32,502 nt of DNA from a virus: positions 1-32,502 of the IMG/VR virus record IMGVR_UViG_3300032088_000040; one strand, 5' to 3'. The notes beneath the pieces were generated by a model. It had not been told where the DNA came from. It searched no databases and saw only the letters and a program-made list of their open reading frames with translations. Below, one piece after another: positions 1 through 32,502 of this stretch. The translations under genes and the position numbers were made by a program. Within the stretch, counting starts at the first letter, position 1, and each line of letters opens with the position of its first letter.

Positions 1-318
1 TATAGAAATCTTCGCCCAGAAAAAGAAAATGGAAGCCATGAGAAAGGAAATAAAAGACCATATATCATGGACTTACGGGCCATCTGCGTGGGAGGAGGTG
101 CTTCAAATAGAAGGTGAGATGCGCCGCATTCGCAAGGAAGAGGCTTACAAGAAACAAGAGATGATCGACAATGCTATCAATTTCACCCTTGGCACTATTA
201 TATTCGTTATTGCTGGTGCGGGGATCGTGACAGGATTTTATTATCTTGGGCGCTATCAGGGCAAGTGGTAATGTGGTTTTTAGTTTGGTTTCAAGTTATA
301 AACAACAACATTGAGCAT
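1..318. repeat. Left copy of the redundant contig end
   Basis: This stretch matches 32185-32502 without gaps at a constant offset of 32,184. Bases 1-126 are identical. After that I count 14 mismatches: 127, 154, 184, 187, 193, 205, 235, 262, 270, 292, 293, 295, 297 and 300. Those up to 262 are all synonymous, and position 270 changes TAA to TGA. The simplest reading is a circular or circularly permuted genome whose two contig ends come from different strain variants, not an exact terminal repeat. Confidence 0.9.
2..271 (+). CDS. 3' part of the 157-aa membrane protein gene (cut by window edge)
   Basis: The open frame runs in from base 2 with no start and encodes the last 89 residues of the protein that is complete at 31982-32455. 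The protein sequence is identical in both copies although several third codon positions differ. It has a charged helical region (many Lys and Glu), then one hydrophobic segment near the C-terminus and a short GRYQGKW tail. An internal ATG at 29 is not the real start, because the complete copy begins 68 codons before the codon matching base 2. The stop TAA overlaps the next ATG (TAATG at 269-273). The function is unknown; see the complete copy. Confidence 0.85.
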   Translation: MEIFAQKKKMEAMRKEIKDHISWTYGPSAWEEVLQIEGEMRRIRKEEAYKKQEMIDNAINFTLGTIIFVIAGAGIVTGFYYLGRYQGKW

Positions 319-3781: not shown

Positions 3782-4033
3782 TTAATAACCCCGCTCCGCA
3801 AAGTCTTCATCAATATACTCAATTAACGTGCAGTGATATTGCTTTAGAATTTCATTGCTCAAGCGTTTAGAAACTGGATCGGTTTTGCCGGGGCGGCAGA
3901 TGCTTGTGATTTCGCTTTCGATCTCACCGGGATCATCTGCCCATCCAATTCCCTTTGAGGCTTCGTAATAAACCTCAATGTCTAACTCGATGCCTTTAAT
4001 TTCAACTGCGGTTTTTATTGAGTAATAATTCAT
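3782..4033 (-). CDS. Hypothetical acidic protein, 83 aa
   Basis: Starts at ATG 4033 with CAGGAG seven bases upstream. Small soluble protein, beta-rich at the start (about residues 3-24), then an acidic, Cys-containing middle (EIESEITSICRPG) and an acidic end (EYIDEDFAERGY). Proteins with a similar start and EI.S end occur in phages without known function, by recollection. It is the first gene of a leftward unit that runs to the methyltransferase, directly downstream of the promoter-like module at 4062-4103. Confidence 0.7.
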   Translation of the reverse strand: MNYYSIKTAVEIKGIELDIEVYYEASKGIGWADDPGEIESEITSICRPGKTDPVSKRLSNEILKQYHCTLIEYIDEDFAERGY

Positions 4034-4061: not shown

Positions 4062-4103
4062 TTTGTATTGCGCTATTTACAATGTTGCAAGCGTTTATTT
4101 ACA
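4062..4103 (-). promoter_or_regulatory. Promoter/operator-like module, leftward
   Basis: Read on the minus strand: TGTAAA (4103-4098), 7 bases, TTGCAA (4090-4085), 3 bases, TGTAAA (4081-4076). TTGCAA with a 17-base spacer leads to TACAAA (4067-4062), a plausible -35/-10 pair for the unit starting at 4033. The same arrangement recurs at 4697-4737. TGTAAA copies repeat at 22 bases, near two helical turns, as expected for an operator. Confidence 0.5.
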
Positions 4104-4173: not shown

Positions 4174-4235
4174 TACTCCTTTTCTTTGATTAATCTGTTG
4201 CAGATACTGATTAGGTTTTCTTTATAATCGGTCAT
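4173..4235 (-). CDS. 20-aa peptide in overlapping gene chain
   Basis: A 20-codon frame (MTDYKENLISICNRLIKEKE) whose ATG overlaps the stop of the winged-helix gene (ATGA) and whose stop overlaps the next start (TAATG). Its last codons supply the ribosome binding site of the 24-aa gene. Charged and helix-prone. It may be a real peptide or only a translation relay. Confidence 0.45.
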   Translation of the reverse strand: MTDYKENLISICNRLIKEKE

Positions 4236-4444
4236 TGTTTAGCCTCCGAAATCAAAAAATAACGAGCATAAGATTTATTGTTATGCTGTTCCCTGACAGC
4301 TTCAATTGTGTGTCCATCCTCCTTCAAGAAGCCAATGTAAGCGGCAAGCCGCGTAACATGATAATTGGTTATCGCCTCCCACGAGGTTATGCCGTTTTTG
4401 TGTGTTCTGAGATGATTAAGCACTTTGAGTTTTTGAGTTTCCAT
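4232..4444 (-). CDS. Small winged-helix DNA-binding protein (HTH_39-like)
   Basis: A 70-aa protein made almost only of one helix-turn-helix domain: KVLNHLRTHKNGITSWEA, then NYHVTRLAAYIGFLKEDGH, and a beta hairpin ending SYARYFL. This pattern (ITSWEAI...TRLAAYI..L...GH.I) matches the phage HTH_39 type domain as I remember it. AAGGAAAAG precedes the start. The leader holds a hairpin with a UUCG loop and a 19-bp repeat that recurs at 5570. A regulatory role in the early region is likely, but its target cannot be read from sequence. Confidence 0.8.
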   Translation of the reverse strand: METQKLKVLNHLRTHKNGITSWEAITNYHVTRLAAYIGFLKEDGHTIEAVREQHNNKSYARYFLISEAKQ

Positions 4445-4509: not shown

Positions 4510-4656
4510 TTAGATTTCCAAAATGCTCACAATGTGCTTTGGCAATGTTCCCATCGCATCACACTTTTGGCGAGCTTGGGCTTTGGCTTCGGAAATTGTG
4601 TATCCGATACCTTTGATGGTCAAACCGTTGAATGTTGAAACTGTAAACTCGATCAT
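4510..4656 (-). CDS. Hypothetical 48-aa protein
   Basis: ATG at 4656 follows a strong GGGGAGGG with 7-8 bases spacing. The 48 codons give a well-folded-looking small protein: two beta-like stretches (EFTVSTFNGLTIKGIGYT) and a helix (SEAKAQARQKCDAM), ending in IVSILEI. This layout resembles small phage proteins of unknown function. It is the first gene of a leftward unit downstream of the promoter module at 4697-4737 and is divergent from rusA. Confidence 0.7.
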   Translation of the reverse strand: MIEFTVSTFNGLTIKGIGYTISEAKAQARQKCDAMGTLPKHIVSILEI

Positions 4657-4696: not shown

Positions 4697-4737
4697 AATG
4701 TAAATTGGTTTTTACACTATTGCAAGGGGGATTTACA
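4697..4737 (-). promoter_or_regulatory. Second promoter/operator-like module, leftward
   Basis: On the minus strand: TGTAAA (4737-4732), 6 bases, TTGCAA (4725-4720), 3 bases, TGTAAA (4716-4711), and TTGCAA plus 17 bases leads to TACATT (4702-4697). This repeats the module at 4062-4103. A further TGTAAA on the plus strand (4699-4704) makes an inverted repeat with the one at 4711. The region lies between divergent genes (48-aa gene and rusA), so it could control both. Confidence 0.5.
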
Positions 4738-4766: not shown

Positions 4767-5198
4767 ATGTATCGTGTTGAAATTGAGGTAGAGGGACAAC
4801 CCCAAGGCAAGGCCAGACCGCGCATGAGCCGATTTGGTCACGTTTACACGCCTCAGAAGACTAGAGAGTATGAAAAGCGCATAAAGGCCGCTGTGTGGGC
4901 CGCTATGCAGCGAGAACGGCTGGAAGCAACCAACAGGCCCGTTCATATAGATATGGTTGCTTTTATGGACATTCCGAAAAGCTGGTCGAATACTAAAAAG
5001 ATCGCCGCTGAGTTTGACGCATTTCGGCACACGACAAAGCCAGACTTAGACAACATATTGAAGGCCGCTTTAGACGGCATATCAGGGCCGCAGGGCGTTA
5101 TATTGGATGATAAGCAAGTTCACAGCGTCAAAGCTAAAAAGGTGTTCTGTCACCCCGACAGAGGCCCGGTGCTTTATATATCTATCTCTTGGGAATAG
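4767..5198 (+). CDS. rusA: RusA-type Holliday junction resolvase
   Basis: A 143-aa endonuclease that cuts four-way DNA junctions symmetrically, working as a dimer. Seen: the substrate-side N-terminus GKARPRM (14-20), then the acidic core KPDLDNILKAALDGI (91-105) with Asp93 and Asp95, and a third acidic site in GVILDDKQV (110-118, Asp114). These match the three catalytic aspartates of RusA, and Lys99 the conserved lysine. Length is usual. It is the only rightward gene within a leftward block and its last 25 bases overlap the end of the HNH gene. The ribosome binding site is poor, so the start at 4767 is likely but not certain. Role: resolving recombination intermediates before packaging. Confidence 0.93.
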   Translation: MYRVEIEVEGQPQGKARPRMSRFGHVYTPQKTREYEKRIKAAVWAAMQRERLEATNRPVHIDMVAFMDIPKSWSNTKKIAAEFDAFRHTTKPDLDNILKAALDGISGPQGVILDDKQVHSVKAKKVFCHPDRGPVLYISISWE

Positions 5199-6377: not shown

Positions 6378-6985
6378 AATTCTAGCTCCTTTTTGCGATC
6401 ATCATGTGCTTCAACCATGCGGTTAAAGTCTTCCTCTGAAAGACCGACTTGGTTTATAGTTTTGACGTATTTTGGTTCAAACTTTTGGAAATTAGCCGCG
6501 CTGCAACCGTTACTGTAGAAATCAACAACCGCCTGCACCCGATCATCTGGGGCTATGCTCATTGGCGTGTGCTTTGGTGCTATTGTTTCGTTCTTGCGTT
6601 CAACACCCACCATTTCATTAGCAGACGCATATGTGCCGCCATGTAAGCCCAGCGAAGCCAATGCGCGTCCAATTGCAGATGTTTCGCAAACTTCCAAGGC
6701 TGATGTTTTGGTTATGTAGGATGATCCGCGTATTTCTTCCGCAAGGCCCGATCCAACAATAAAACCGTCTTTGTCTTTAATGATGGCTCGGACAACGACC
6801 GTTTGTTGGTCGTTATATACAAGCTCTGTTTCGATCCCGTAATTGCCTCCAAACGTAATGCGGAAGGCTTCCATTCGTGTGGAAACCTCTGTGTATGACT
6901 TGCCGCCCTTTTGCATAACGCCGTGAGATTTGTTTAACTCACTGACAAGCTCCATAGCATCGTGGAATTTTTTGGTCTCGGTCAT
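6374..6985 (-). CDS. Single-strand annealing recombinase-like protein (ERF/Rad52-type)
   Basis: A 203-aa protein whose core GSGLAEEIRGSS (about 78-89), ITKTSALEVCETSAIGRALAS and LGLHGGTYASANEM is the signature seen in phage ERF-like single-strand annealing proteins: the glycine/serine loop, then the ETSAIGRALA helix and the Y.SANE ending. It would pair complementary strands during recombination-dependent replication or repair. The C-terminal part (about 130-203) is more variable. It is translationally coupled on both sides (TAATG at the start, ATGA at the end) and is the second gene of the leftward unit from the 7198-7263 promoter region. Confidence 0.82.
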   Translation of the reverse strand: MTETKKFHDAMELVSELNKSHGVMQKGGKSYTEVSTRMEAFRITFGGNYGIETELVYNDQQTVVVRAIIKDKDGFIVGSGLAEEIRGSSYITKTSALEVCETSAIGRALASLGLHGGTYASANEMVGVERKNETIAPKHTPMSIAPDDRVQAVVDFYSNGCSAANFQKFEPKYVKTINQVGLSEEDFNRMVEAHDDRKKELEL

Positions 6986-7173
6986 TATTGGTCTCCCCCA
7001 AAGTCTCTAATTGTTTTGCTTATTTTTTCGATTGCACCGACAGGAAAGTTTAGCTTGTTATACTCTTCAAAGCTGATTTCTTTCTGTTCAAATTTTTTGG
7101 AAACGTCCATCCAGTGTTCGGTTAGCAATGTGTACATCTTGCTAATTAACAACTCTTTATCGTTTACGGTCAT
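6985..7173 (-). CDS. Hypothetical 62-aa protein, first gene of recombination unit
   Basis: ATG at 7173 is preferred because GGGAG lies 10 bases upstream; a start at 7197 would add 8 residues. The protein is a small helical one (NDKELLISKMYTLLTEHWMD, then SFEEYNKLNFPVGAIEKISK). Its stop overlaps the start of the annealing protein. No known domain is recognised. It may be an accessory partner of the recombinase, judged only from the coupling. Confidence 0.65.
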   Translation of the reverse strand: MTVNDKELLISKMYTLLTEHWMDVSKKFEQKEISFEEYNKLNFPVGAIEKISKTIRDFGGDQ

Positions 7174-7204
7174 TGTTATTTCTCCCATTGTCTGCATCTT
7201 GGGG

Positions 7205-7244
7205 TTTACAATAGATATTTGCGGGTGTAAAGCATAAATTGCAA
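7205..7244. promoter_or_regulatory. Divergent promoter/operator region between early units
   Basis: The 90-bp gap between the 62-aa gene and the Cro-like gene holds TTTACA at 7205, TGTAAA at 7226 (an inverted repeat with 15 bases between) and TTGCAA at 7239. TGTAAA, 7 bases, TTGCAA is the same half-module seen at 4062 and 4697. Either strand has TTTACA followed 17 bases later by TAAAGC or TAAACC as weak -35/-10 pairs. Transcription must begin here in both directions. Confidence 0.55.
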
Positions 7245-7263: not shown

Positions 7264-7434
7264 ATGCTAACGCCAGACGAAATTCGTGAAAAGCTGACTG
7301 ACGTAAACATGAGCAAGATTGCCAGAGAGACAGGTTTAACGCGCCCGACGATATATAAATTTCTGACCGGGGCTGAAAATATGCAGTATGATACTGTCAG
7401 AAGGGTTTCGGAATACTTTGAAAGGGAAGTCTAA
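7264..7434 (+). CDS. Small Cro/XRE-like helix-turn-helix regulator
   Basis: A 56-aa protein that is nothing but a helix-turn-helix: EIREKLTDVNMSKIARETG, then LTRPTIYKFLTGAENMQYDT and a closing helix VRRVSEYFE. This is the XRE/Cro layout with the recognition helix at about residues 26-35. GGAG is placed 6 bases before the ATG. The stop overlaps the initiator's start (TAATG). Position at a divergent promoter that carries inverted TTTACA/TGTAAA boxes suggests autoregulation and switching of the early units, in the manner of lambda Cro. Direct binding is inferred. Confidence 0.82.
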   Translation: MLTPDEIREKLTDVNMSKIARETGLTRPTIYKFLTGAENMQYDTVRRVSEYFEREV

Positions 7435-8126
7435 TGTCTCACCAAATGACAGCACTTGCTATGGAACAGGACTTAGCCCCTGCCCCAAAGATTGTTCTGT
7501 ATTGGATTGCTAACCACCATAACGGTGAAACTGGCTTGTGCTTTCCGAGTATCAACAGGCTGGCTAAGGTGTGCAGAATGTCCCGGCGATCTGTGGAGAA
7601 GCATATAGCCGATCTGGCAGGGCTTGGTCTTATACAGGTGACACAAAGGTTTCGTGCTGAAGGTGGTAAGACTTCCAATAGTTACCAGTTGTTTCTCAAG
7701 AGTTCCCAAGAGTTCCAGACCGATGCGCAAAATCTGCGTATGGGTAGCGCAAAAACTGCGCATGGGGATACGCAAAATCTGCGCATGAATAACCTTGGAA
7801 GAAAGAACCTTGGAATAGAAGATAATATATTGGTCGAAAAGTTTGACGATTTTTATAAATGCTTCCCAAGAAAGACGGCGAAGGGTTTAGCGAGAAAGGC
7901 TTGGGAACTTGCAGTTGCAAAGACCAACCCTGATGTTATTATTTCAAAGGCTGCTTTGTATGCGGCCAGTGTAGAGGGCAAAGACAAAAAGTTTATCCCG
8001 CATCCCGCTACATGGTTAAATCAAGAACGATGGGATGATGAAGTATTCGCTCAAGCAGACAGCGAACAAAATCAACAAAACTTAGTGCATAAGATTTTTG
8101 CAGAAATGGTGAAACCAAATGCGTGA
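7434..8126 (+). CDS. Replication initiator, lambda O-like, with winged helix
   Basis: A 230-aa protein. Residues about 17-88 form a HTH_36-type winged helix (IVLYWIANHHN, CFPSINRLAKVCRMSRRSVE, HIADLAGLGLI). Residues 89-135 are a low-complexity linker, and 136-205 form a second domain with FYKCFPRKTAKGLARKAW and PHPATWLNQERW, seen in many phage replication initiators. It should bind origin iterons and recruit the host helicase. The linker is encoded by three palindromic DNA repeats (7723-7787), exactly where lambda carries its origin within O. The start is coupled to the Cro-like gene by TAATG. Family membership is clear; the host partner is inferred. Confidence 0.85.
   Translation: MSHQMTALAMEQDLAPAPKIVLYWIANHHNGETGLCFPSINRLAKVCRMSRRSVEKHIADLAGLGLIQVTQRFRAEGGKTSNSYQLFLKSSQEFQTDAQNLRMGSAKTAHGDTQNLRMNNLGRKNLGIEDNILVEKFDDFYKCFPRKTAKGLARKAWELAVAKTNPDVIISKAALYAASVEGKDKKFIPHPATWLNQERWDDEVFAQADSEQNQQNLVHKIFAEMVKPNA
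7723..7858. other. Putative replication origin: three iterons plus AT-rich segment
   Basis: Three related 18-bp palindromic repeats lie at 7725-7742, 7747-7764 and 7770-7787, core GCGCAAAATCTGCGCATG with small changes. Each has TGCGCA-type arms around an A-rich centre. Start-to-start spacing is 22 and 23 bases, not a multiple of three, so the repeats are kept as DNA and not as a protein repeat. They are followed by a doubled AACCTTGGAA (7791 and 7806) and an AT-rich stretch at about 7816-7858, which would serve as the unwinding element. The layout is that of lambda ori. Confidence 0.75.
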
Positions 8127-10579: not shown

Positions 10580-10680
10580 AAACTGGTAAGTATTCTTCCG
10601 CAGCATCCTTCAAACCATGCAAGGGTTGCCCTACACCAAGCAAATGCGCAATGGCTGGCAAGTGTTTAGCAAAGGCATAA
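10576..10680 (+). CDS. 34-aa four-cysteine peptide
   Basis: Starts in ATGA overlap and encodes MKTGKYSSAASFKPCKG then CPTPSKCAMAGKC and LAKA. The four cysteines (CxxC...CxxxxxC) could bind a metal ion. Similar TP.KC..AGKC peptides are seen in marine phages by recollection. It forms a run of three tiny coupled genes with the two before it and ends 3 bases before the large gene. Function unknown. Confidence 0.65.
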   Translation: MKTGKYSSAASFKPCKGCPTPSKCAMAGKCLAKA

Positions 10681-31981: not shown

Positions 31982-32455
31982 ATGATTGACCCTATTACAG
32001 CGGTCGGTCTAGCTACTAGCGCATTTAATATTCTGAAGCAGGGTATTAGTGCTGGCAAGGACATCCAAGAAATGAGCGGCACCTTAGCTAAATGGGGGGC
32101 CGCTTTTTCTGATTTTCAGTATGCTGAAGACAAAACAAAGAACCCTCCATTTTATAAGATGATGTCTGACAATAGCCAAAATGCTATAGAAATCTTCGCC
32201 CAGAAAAAGAAAATGGAAGCCATGAGAAAGGAAATAAAAGACCATATATCATGGACTTACGGGCCATCTGCGTGGGAGGAGGTGCTTCAAATAGAAGGTG
32301 AGATGCGCCGAATTCGCAAGGAAGAGGCTTACAAGAAGCAAGAGATGATCGACAATGCTATCAATTTTACACTTGGAACTATTATATTTGTTATTGCTGG
32401 TGCGGGGATCGTGACAGGCTTTTATTATCTTGGGCGCTATCAGGGAAAGTGGTGA
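31982..32455 (+). CDS. Hypothetical membrane protein, 157 aa, lysis region
   Basis: Complete copy of the gene cut at bases 2-271. The N-terminal part is Gly/Ala/Ile-rich (DPITAVGLATSAFNILKQGI), the middle is charged and helical (EIFAQKKKMEAMRKEIKDHI, EEVLQIEGEMRRIRKEE), and one hydrophobic segment at about 128-150 (NFTLGTIIFVIAGAGIV) is followed by GRYQGKW. Proteins of this kind are common at this place in marine phages by recollection, but no role is known. Its stop overlaps the next ATG (GTGATG). The protein is unchanged between the two variants although the DNA differs, so it is under purifying selection. Confidence 0.8.
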   Translation: MIDPITAVGLATSAFNILKQGISAGKDIQEMSGTLAKWGAAFSDFQYAEDKTKNPPFYKMMSDNSQNAIEIFAQKKKMEAMRKEIKDHISWTYGPSAWEEVLQIEGEMRRIRKEEAYKKQEMIDNAINFTLGTIIFVIAGAGIVTGFYYLGRYQGKW

Positions 32456-32502
32456 TGTGGTTTTTAGTTTGGTTTATAATAATCAACAACAACATTGAGC
32501 AT
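32185..32502. repeat. Right copy of the redundant contig end
   Basis: Gap-free partner of 1-318 with 14 differences, all after the first 126 bases. Together the two copies show that the sequence joins to itself, giving a unit of about 32,184 bp. Confidence 0.9.
32455..32502 (+). CDS. 5' start of the 54-aa gene (variant, cut by window edge)
   Basis: Sixteen codons, MWFLVWFIIINNNIEH, corresponding to the gene complete at 271-435. Two residues differ (Ile-Ile for Gln-Val at 8-9), both within the hydrophobic N-terminal segment, while the flanking codons are unchanged. The ATG overlaps the TGA of the gene before it. Confidence 0.75.
   Translation, partial: MWFLVWFIIINNNIEH

Follow-up and report, generated by a model that had tools for sequence, protein, structure and literature searches.

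The 32,502-bp stretch of marine phage DNA analysed here (the window), which spans the complete record of this virus, carries six similar dyad sites spread over three control regions. Our preferred reading, which we hold at a probability of roughly 0.6, is that two of these regions would be sigma-70 promoters with a pair of operators (O1 and O2) superimposed on them, and that a small 56-aa protein encoded at the third would bind all six sites and repress the early units. The two leftward units that follow modules 1 and 2 and the region of the 56-aa gene are thus probably controlled together (Table 1). By appearance the window derives from a podo- or siphovirus, and the host is probably a Roseobacter-like bacterium, since the nearest DNA matches of the window are patches in Roseobacter phages. 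The names ERF, SSB, RusA and HNH used throughout were given from synteny and the look of the sequences, with a library check for some of them. The two ends of the window (1-318 and 32185-32502) are 318-bp near-repeats with 14 mismatches, so that either the genome is circular or terminally redundant and its assembly mixes strains, or the repeat is truly imperfect.

Table 1. Sites, genes and gene units of the window (putative assignments are marked as such).
Feature	Position	Strand	Remarks
Module 1 operator O1 (putative)	4086..4103	-	TGTAA-ATAAACGC-TTGCA; exact, N8, intergenic; right arm overlaps -35; kept in relatives
Module 1 operator O2 (putative)	4064..4081	-	TGTAA-ATAGCGCA-ATACA; one mismatch; right arm overlaps -10
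Module 1 -35 TTGCAA	4085..4090	-	17 bp before TACAAA; TTGCAA/TTGCAC/TTGCAG in relatives
Module 1 -10 TACAAA	4062..4067	-	without T at -7; invariant in module 1 relatives
Module 2 operator O1 (putative)	4721..4737	-	TGTAA-ATCCCCC-TTGCA; exact, N7, one base shorter; right arm overlaps -35
Module 2 operator O2 (putative)	4699..4716	-	TGTAA-AAACCAAT-TTACA, perfect palindrome; exact; right arm overlaps -10
Module 2 -35 TTGCAA	4720..4725	-	TTGACA at equivalent place in L102, L105
Module 2 -10 TACATT	4697..4702	-	17 bp past TTGCAA; TACATT/TACATA/TACACA in relatives
A-tract TTTTTTTAAAAAAA	4740..4753		directly upstream of module 2; kept in window clade and 71% clade; possibly a UP-like element
Divergent operator (putative)	7226..7243	+	TGTAA-AGCATAAA-TTGCA; exact; leader of 56-aa gene
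Divergent operator (putative)	7193..7210	-	TGTAA-ACCCCAAG-ATGCA; one mismatch; toward leftward ERF/SSB unit
56-aa XRE-type HTH protein gene	7264..7434	+	best candidate binder of the six sites
83-aa ORF	3782..4033	-	first gene behind module 1; 84-100% identity in relatives
48-aa ORF	4510..4656	-	first gene behind module 2; exchangeable slot
70-aa winged-helix HTH_39 protein	4232..4444	-	behind slot; PF14090, 56.1 bits
RusA-like Holliday junction resolvase gene	4767..5198	+	divergent from module 2; synteny landmark; named from sequence
Leftward unit	4033-2303	-	begins behind module 1
Leftward unit	4656-4232	-	begins behind module 2
Leftward unit	7197-5174	-	ERF-like 203-aa protein, SSB-like, NinB, HNH-like
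Rightward genes	from 7264	+	56-aa HTH gene, replication initiator (phrog_270), later terminase and structural genes

The initial annotation had described a fixed order of three boxes, twice on the minus strand and each time upstream of a gene, and this proved exact: TGTAAA-N{6,7}-TTGCAA-N3-TGTAAA has exactly two matches in the window (4103-4076 and 4737-4711, both minus) and none in 100 dinucleotide-preserving shuffles of it. Both copies lie outside annotated genes, upstream of the 83-aa and 48-aa ORFs, and the -10-like TACAAA and TACATT each begin 17 bases past TTGCAA, as had been claimed. The spacers do differ while the boxes are kept, reading TAAACGC/TCCCCC, CAT/TAG and TAGCGCAA/AACCAATT in copy 1 versus copy 2. 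The second TGTAAA box and the -10 are also joined in an inverted repeat, TGTA-N10-TACA. The boxes are best read as half-sites of two palindromes placed in tandem at each promoter, O1 (TGTAA-N7/8-TTRCA) and O2 (TGTAA-N8-[AT]TACA), so that each module holds dyad half-sites at fixed spacing, in tandem over the -35 and the -10. We discarded three independent boxes for two reasons: a pair of palindromes accounts for the letters, and in the distant relative L221 the site in the leader of the HTH gene has a complete TTACA arm where the window has TTGCA. The covariation of half-sites in higBA promoters (see below) also points to two tandem palindromes, with the right arm of O1 acting as the -35 and that of O2 as the -10. 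Judged by eye, neither a BlaI/CopY box nor 11-bp direct repeats of the PhoB kind fit the spacing, and both readings were dropped. One observation weighs against our main reading: O1 of module 2 is a base shorter than the other sites.

Exact matches to TGTAA-N7/8-TTRCA number four in the window (both O1 sites, O2 of module 2 and 7226-7243), all in promoter regions and so in the 1.6 kb of the window that is non-coding, where 0.036 are expected from shuffled non-coding sequence; a motif equally common inside genes, the outcome named as telling against the idea, was thus not what we found. With one mismatch allowed at N8 there were 6 non-coding sites versus 0.33 expected in shuffled non-coding DNA, the added ones being 4064-4081, 7193-7210 and 10618-10635, together with two inside genes. 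Since the motif was built from four of the six sites, independent support comes from the third region (7193-7243), which has the same half-sites in a different arrangement, from a spacing scan of TGTAA-N-TTRCA, in which sites cluster at no spacing besides N7/N8, and from conservation. The lone one-mismatch site at 10618-10635 (minus strand; TGTAGGGCAACCCTTGCA) is non-coding and stands before a 609-aa ORF.

Relatives were gathered from IMG/VR by a pattern scan and by RusA and replication-protein scans; the first pattern scan gave 33 matches, many of them redundant or due to chance (e.g. L007, L009, L011 and L027). By RusA identity the relatives fall into three tiers: close ones at 96-100%, an intermediate clade at 71% that includes L052 and L055, and distant phages at 37-46%, which share the gene order. 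The layout found twice in the window is conserved among them, and in the 8.5-11.8 kb available from each of the close relatives L062, L012 and L078 all six sites recur without any additional one. Module 1 retains across relatives the boxes TGTAAATAA, TTGCA followed by one base that varies, TGTAAA and ATACAAAAGTGC; TTGCA/TTGC is constant while the last letters of TTGCAA vary, and O2 is kept as TGTAA-N8-ATACA. In module 2 they are TGTAAA, TTGCAATAG, TGTAAAA and TACA, with O2 reading TGTAA-N8-[TA]TACA in relatives and TGTAAG-N6-CTTACA in L221. The 71% clade keeps O1 of module 2 (L052, L055) and has TGTAAA-N6-TTTACA in this module. Just past the module 2 -10 (4702-4690, minus strand) the window reads TACATTGTATGTA, a short inverted repeat of the form TACAT-N3-ATGTA, which also follows the -10 in many other copies of the module, including those of L005, L032 and L221; many relatives read TACATATAAT there.

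The distant relatives L102, L181 and L105 (RusA 37-39%) have TGTAA-N8-TTGAC-N3-TGTAA-N10-TACA at the equivalent place, with 19-bp sites and a consensus -35, and the layout is present twice each in L102 and L181. In L221, whose RusA is 46% and whose 56-aa protein is 38-39% identical, there are two modules and their arms have shifted in concert to TGTAAG/TGTAAG/CTTACA, showing half-sites that change together, a comparison for which the arms of the window's own clade are too invariant. Counting against our main reading, in L221 the left arm of O1 is lost in the module opposite RusA and the right arm is lost in the leftward divergent site. The counterpart of 7226-7243 is a perfect palindrome, TGTAA-N8-TTACA, in L221 versus the TTGCA arm of the window, and CGTAA-N8-TTGCA in L055, while the 7193-7210 site is kept in six relatives (L062, L012, L078, L034, L006 and L029). 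Finally, an unrelated clade (L206, L224, L228 and others) has TGTAA-N8-CTACA directly before the start codon of a homologue with 33-35% identity to the 56-aa protein. A RusA search of genome contigs for prophage copies gave no relative, no close relative was found among cultured phages, TGTAA-N8-TTRCA did not occur in the regions examined of Sulfitobacter phage phiGT1 and of phages 1N2-2 and H103, and our literature search on roseophage promoters turned up nothing direct.

Two HTH proteins, of 56 and 70 aa, had been proposed as binders, and it is the former that the comparisons favor as the likeliest binder of the six sites. Two of the sites, 7226-7243 and 7193-7210, adjoin its own gene, which is always present in the window clade, the 71% clade and L221, with the same half-sites beside it. 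The protein belongs by Pfam to the PF21716 addiction-module antidote family (31.2 bits against a cut-off of 27) and by PHROG to phrog_18104, a transcriptional regulator (E 1e-12). An AF2 model built with nine sequences predicts a four-helix HTH fold (pLDDT 88), for which Foldseek gave probabilities of about 1 with HipB, HigA, C.Kpn2I and Aca11 (structure 9lx2); the E-values were weak because the protein is short. A second structural comparison gave Z scores of 6-8, values below 8 being unspecific. Homologues with the recognition helix RPTIY (window, L055, L221) are accompanied by TGTAA sites, and those with other recognition helices (1N2-2, H103, L087) had none in the regions examined. The 70-aa HTH_39 protein fared worse as a common regulator, being missing in the module-bearing L102, L105 and L221, and we rejected on the same grounds a 260-aa HTH protein that is missing in L102, L105, L181 and L221, all of these records being possible fragments. 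Another 70-aa ORF (6985-7197) matched no HTH family, and the two neighbours of the 56-aa gene (6985-7173 and 7434-8126) matched no toxin family.

The best-surviving alternative, which we nevertheless consider unlikely, is that the modules are bound by a different protein, either a host repressor of the XRE/HigA type or a second HTH protein of the phage; whether the leftward accessory units are silent or active would then depend on the host or on a separate phage regulator. No homologue of the 56-aa protein was detectable in L102, L105 and L181 despite their paired sites, in records that may be incomplete, and another protein must therefore serve there; weak HTH_3 matches are encoded inside the leftward units of L102 and L181, and host alphaproteobacterial higBA promoters closely share the geometry. 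Against this stand the constant association of the 56-aa gene with the half-sites beside it in the three groups named above and the absences of the HTH_39 and 260-aa proteins.

As to the promoters themselves, the idea of a promoter with a built-in operator common to two leftward units holds up, whereas its description as phage-specific does not. Most alphaproteobacterial sigma-70 promoters lack a T at -7 (PMC8407463), and TTGCAA-N17-TACAAA/TACATT shows the TTG at -35, the 17-bp spacer and the A at the second position of the -10 that are expected of this class, in which the -7T is optional. Neither module was listed by a scan for the E. coli consensus that required at least 9/12 matches and a T at -7, a point against our main reading. 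Distant relatives read TTGACA-N17-TACATT, and this consensus -35, together with the missing -7T being usual in alphaproteobacteria (PMC8407463), makes the host RNA polymerase the simpler reading. The modules thus look like host sigma-70 promoters with paired operators, and no observation here calls for a phage RNA polymerase.

It is quite improbable, in our estimate, that the boxes are instead activator sites, of which a phage-specific promoter would be a special case. The direct TGTAAA repeats, 21-22 bp apart and thus on one helix face, with one upstream of the -35 at about -53, and the non-consensus -35 and -10 elements of the window would suit an activator. However, the second arm falls in the spacer between the two hexamers and the -10 is covered by an arm of a palindrome, as is typical of repression. 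The boxes are also unchanged in relatives whose -35 is the consensus TTGACA, and the known analogues are autorepressed antitoxin operons. Less probable still is a reading in which only the -35/-10 of two early promoters are real and the TGTAAA boxes persist through the promoters' common descent: the -35 and -10 require parts of the half-sites, and a large share of the relatives differ very little, but spacers diverged where boxes did not, 7226-7243 and 7193-7210 are not required as -35/-10 of the two promoters, TGTAAG/CTTACA changed in concert in L221, and site numbers are far above those of shuffles.

Returning to repression by the 56-aa protein, the O1 and O2 centres lie ~22 bp, or two helical turns, apart, a distance at which two repressor dimers would occupy O1 and O2 on one DNA face and shut RNA polymerase out from both the -35 and the -10. 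The protein would repress its own divergent region, and hence the ERF/SSB recombination unit as well as its own replication operon, and would also repress the two leftward accessory units in the style of a Cro-like or antitoxin-like autorepressor. A PF00589 scan of the window, in a record that may be incomplete, gave no match to this tyrosine recombinase family, so that the tyrosine integrase by which a temperate-phage immunity region would be recognized was not found. Since none was found, the likeliest purpose would be to turn down early genes once the 56-aa protein accumulates. The comparisons themselves show where the sites lie, that they are confined to non-coding DNA and that they are conserved, and they give the protein a predicted fold; from this we infer that the promoters use sigma-70 and that the 56-aa protein binds and represses them, and the early timing from the genes involved.

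The gene directly behind module 2 occupies a slot whose content is exchanged. In the contigs compared (among them L008, L010, L013, L016, L021, L023, L031, L032, L052 and L054), it is replaced by unrelated small ORFs even where RusA is 96-100% identical, giving at least 8 unrelated first ORFs (48, 90, 51, 60, 132, 69, 61 and 148 aa), and the HTH_39 gene behind the slot is kept in the contigs compared while the slot gene changes. Ten of these first genes matched no PHROG of known function, and three (L032, L054 and the 90-aa family) had no Pfam match. Although speculative, module 2 might be a standing repressible operator-promoter for the slot, placing incoming genes (perhaps directed against host defence) at once under early control; we regard this as a tentative proposal. 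A second repeated element, AAACTTGAAAAAAATCCA(A/G)TT, occurs twice on the minus strand: at 4478-4461 it precedes the HTH_39 gene and itself follows a GGGGAGCTTCGGCTCCCC hairpin, and at 5584-5567 it precedes the HNH-like gene. L016 and L023 have two tandem copies of it at a period of 24 bp; it is possibly a second promoter class.

These results provide a concrete candidate regulon of six sites, three control regions and one candidate 56-aa repressor in a marine phage family known almost solely from metagenomes, and an example of an operator folded into the -35 and -10 themselves. The contents of the plug-in slot are good candidates for anti-host functions.

The closest parallels to the phage arrangement are found in higBA toxin-antitoxin promoters. 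The V. cholerae HigA2 operator, TGTACGC-N5-GCGTACA, lies between the -35 and over the -10 (PMC11006873). In a wide gene-blind scan with a generalised pattern, 16 of the 80 genome matches analysed lay 2-16 nt upstream of HigB-like ORFs, mostly of Alphaproteobacteria, three of which Pfam confirmed as PF05015. Two XRE genes (L340, L341) are preceded by TGTAAAC-N5-GTTgACA and then by TGTAAAC-N5-GTTTACA or a near copy. From locus to locus the base that follows TGTAA differs, yet the two left half-sites of a promoter share it in all 18 of these promoters (9.5 expected; 1 in 5000 shuffles as high), and in the same promoters the two O2 arms agree more than expected. Alphaproteobacterial higBA promoters with paired operators (nine loci, from L271 to L343, and others) share TGTAAX-N7-TTGAC-N3-TGTAAX-N..-TACA with a locus-specific X, an arrangement for which our literature search found no published description. 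Like higBA/HigA, the phage has an 18-19 bp dyad operator that starts with TGTA, ends with TACA and lies between -35 and -10, and a candidate binder of XRE fold (predicted, for the 56-aa protein); the alphaproteobacterial promoters additionally resemble those of the phage in having another operator, its right arm forming the -35, with left arms 21 bp apart. In contrast, no toxin gene was seen beside the phage HTH gene, the phage sites extend over three control regions and not one autoregulated operon, and they combine 18 bp with TTGCAA versus 19 bp with TTGACA. This common geometry suggests one reusable design of XRE-type repressor in Alphaproteobacteria and their phages.

The phage switch also resembles two other kinds of regulation. 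Cro/CI-type temperate phages, such as lambda with OR and OL, have a small XRE-fold protein at divergent promoters and similar operators at the left and right early promoters. The phage likewise has a small XRE-fold protein at a divergent region and several similar operators at early promoters, but two operators per promoter where Cro/CI systems have three, a single small XRE protein at that region, and no tyrosine integrase found in the window. Aca autorepressors of anti-CRISPR operons act at inverted repeats over a promoter that is followed by small, rapidly exchanged genes and then an HTH gene. The fold of the 56-aa model and the inverted repeats over a promoter ahead of exchanged small genes and an HTH gene are alike; unlike Aca operons, however, the phage slot is followed by an HTH gene that encodes a winged helix and has an upstream element to itself, and no slot gene matched a family of known function. 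The phage switch is neat but largely of a familiar kind.
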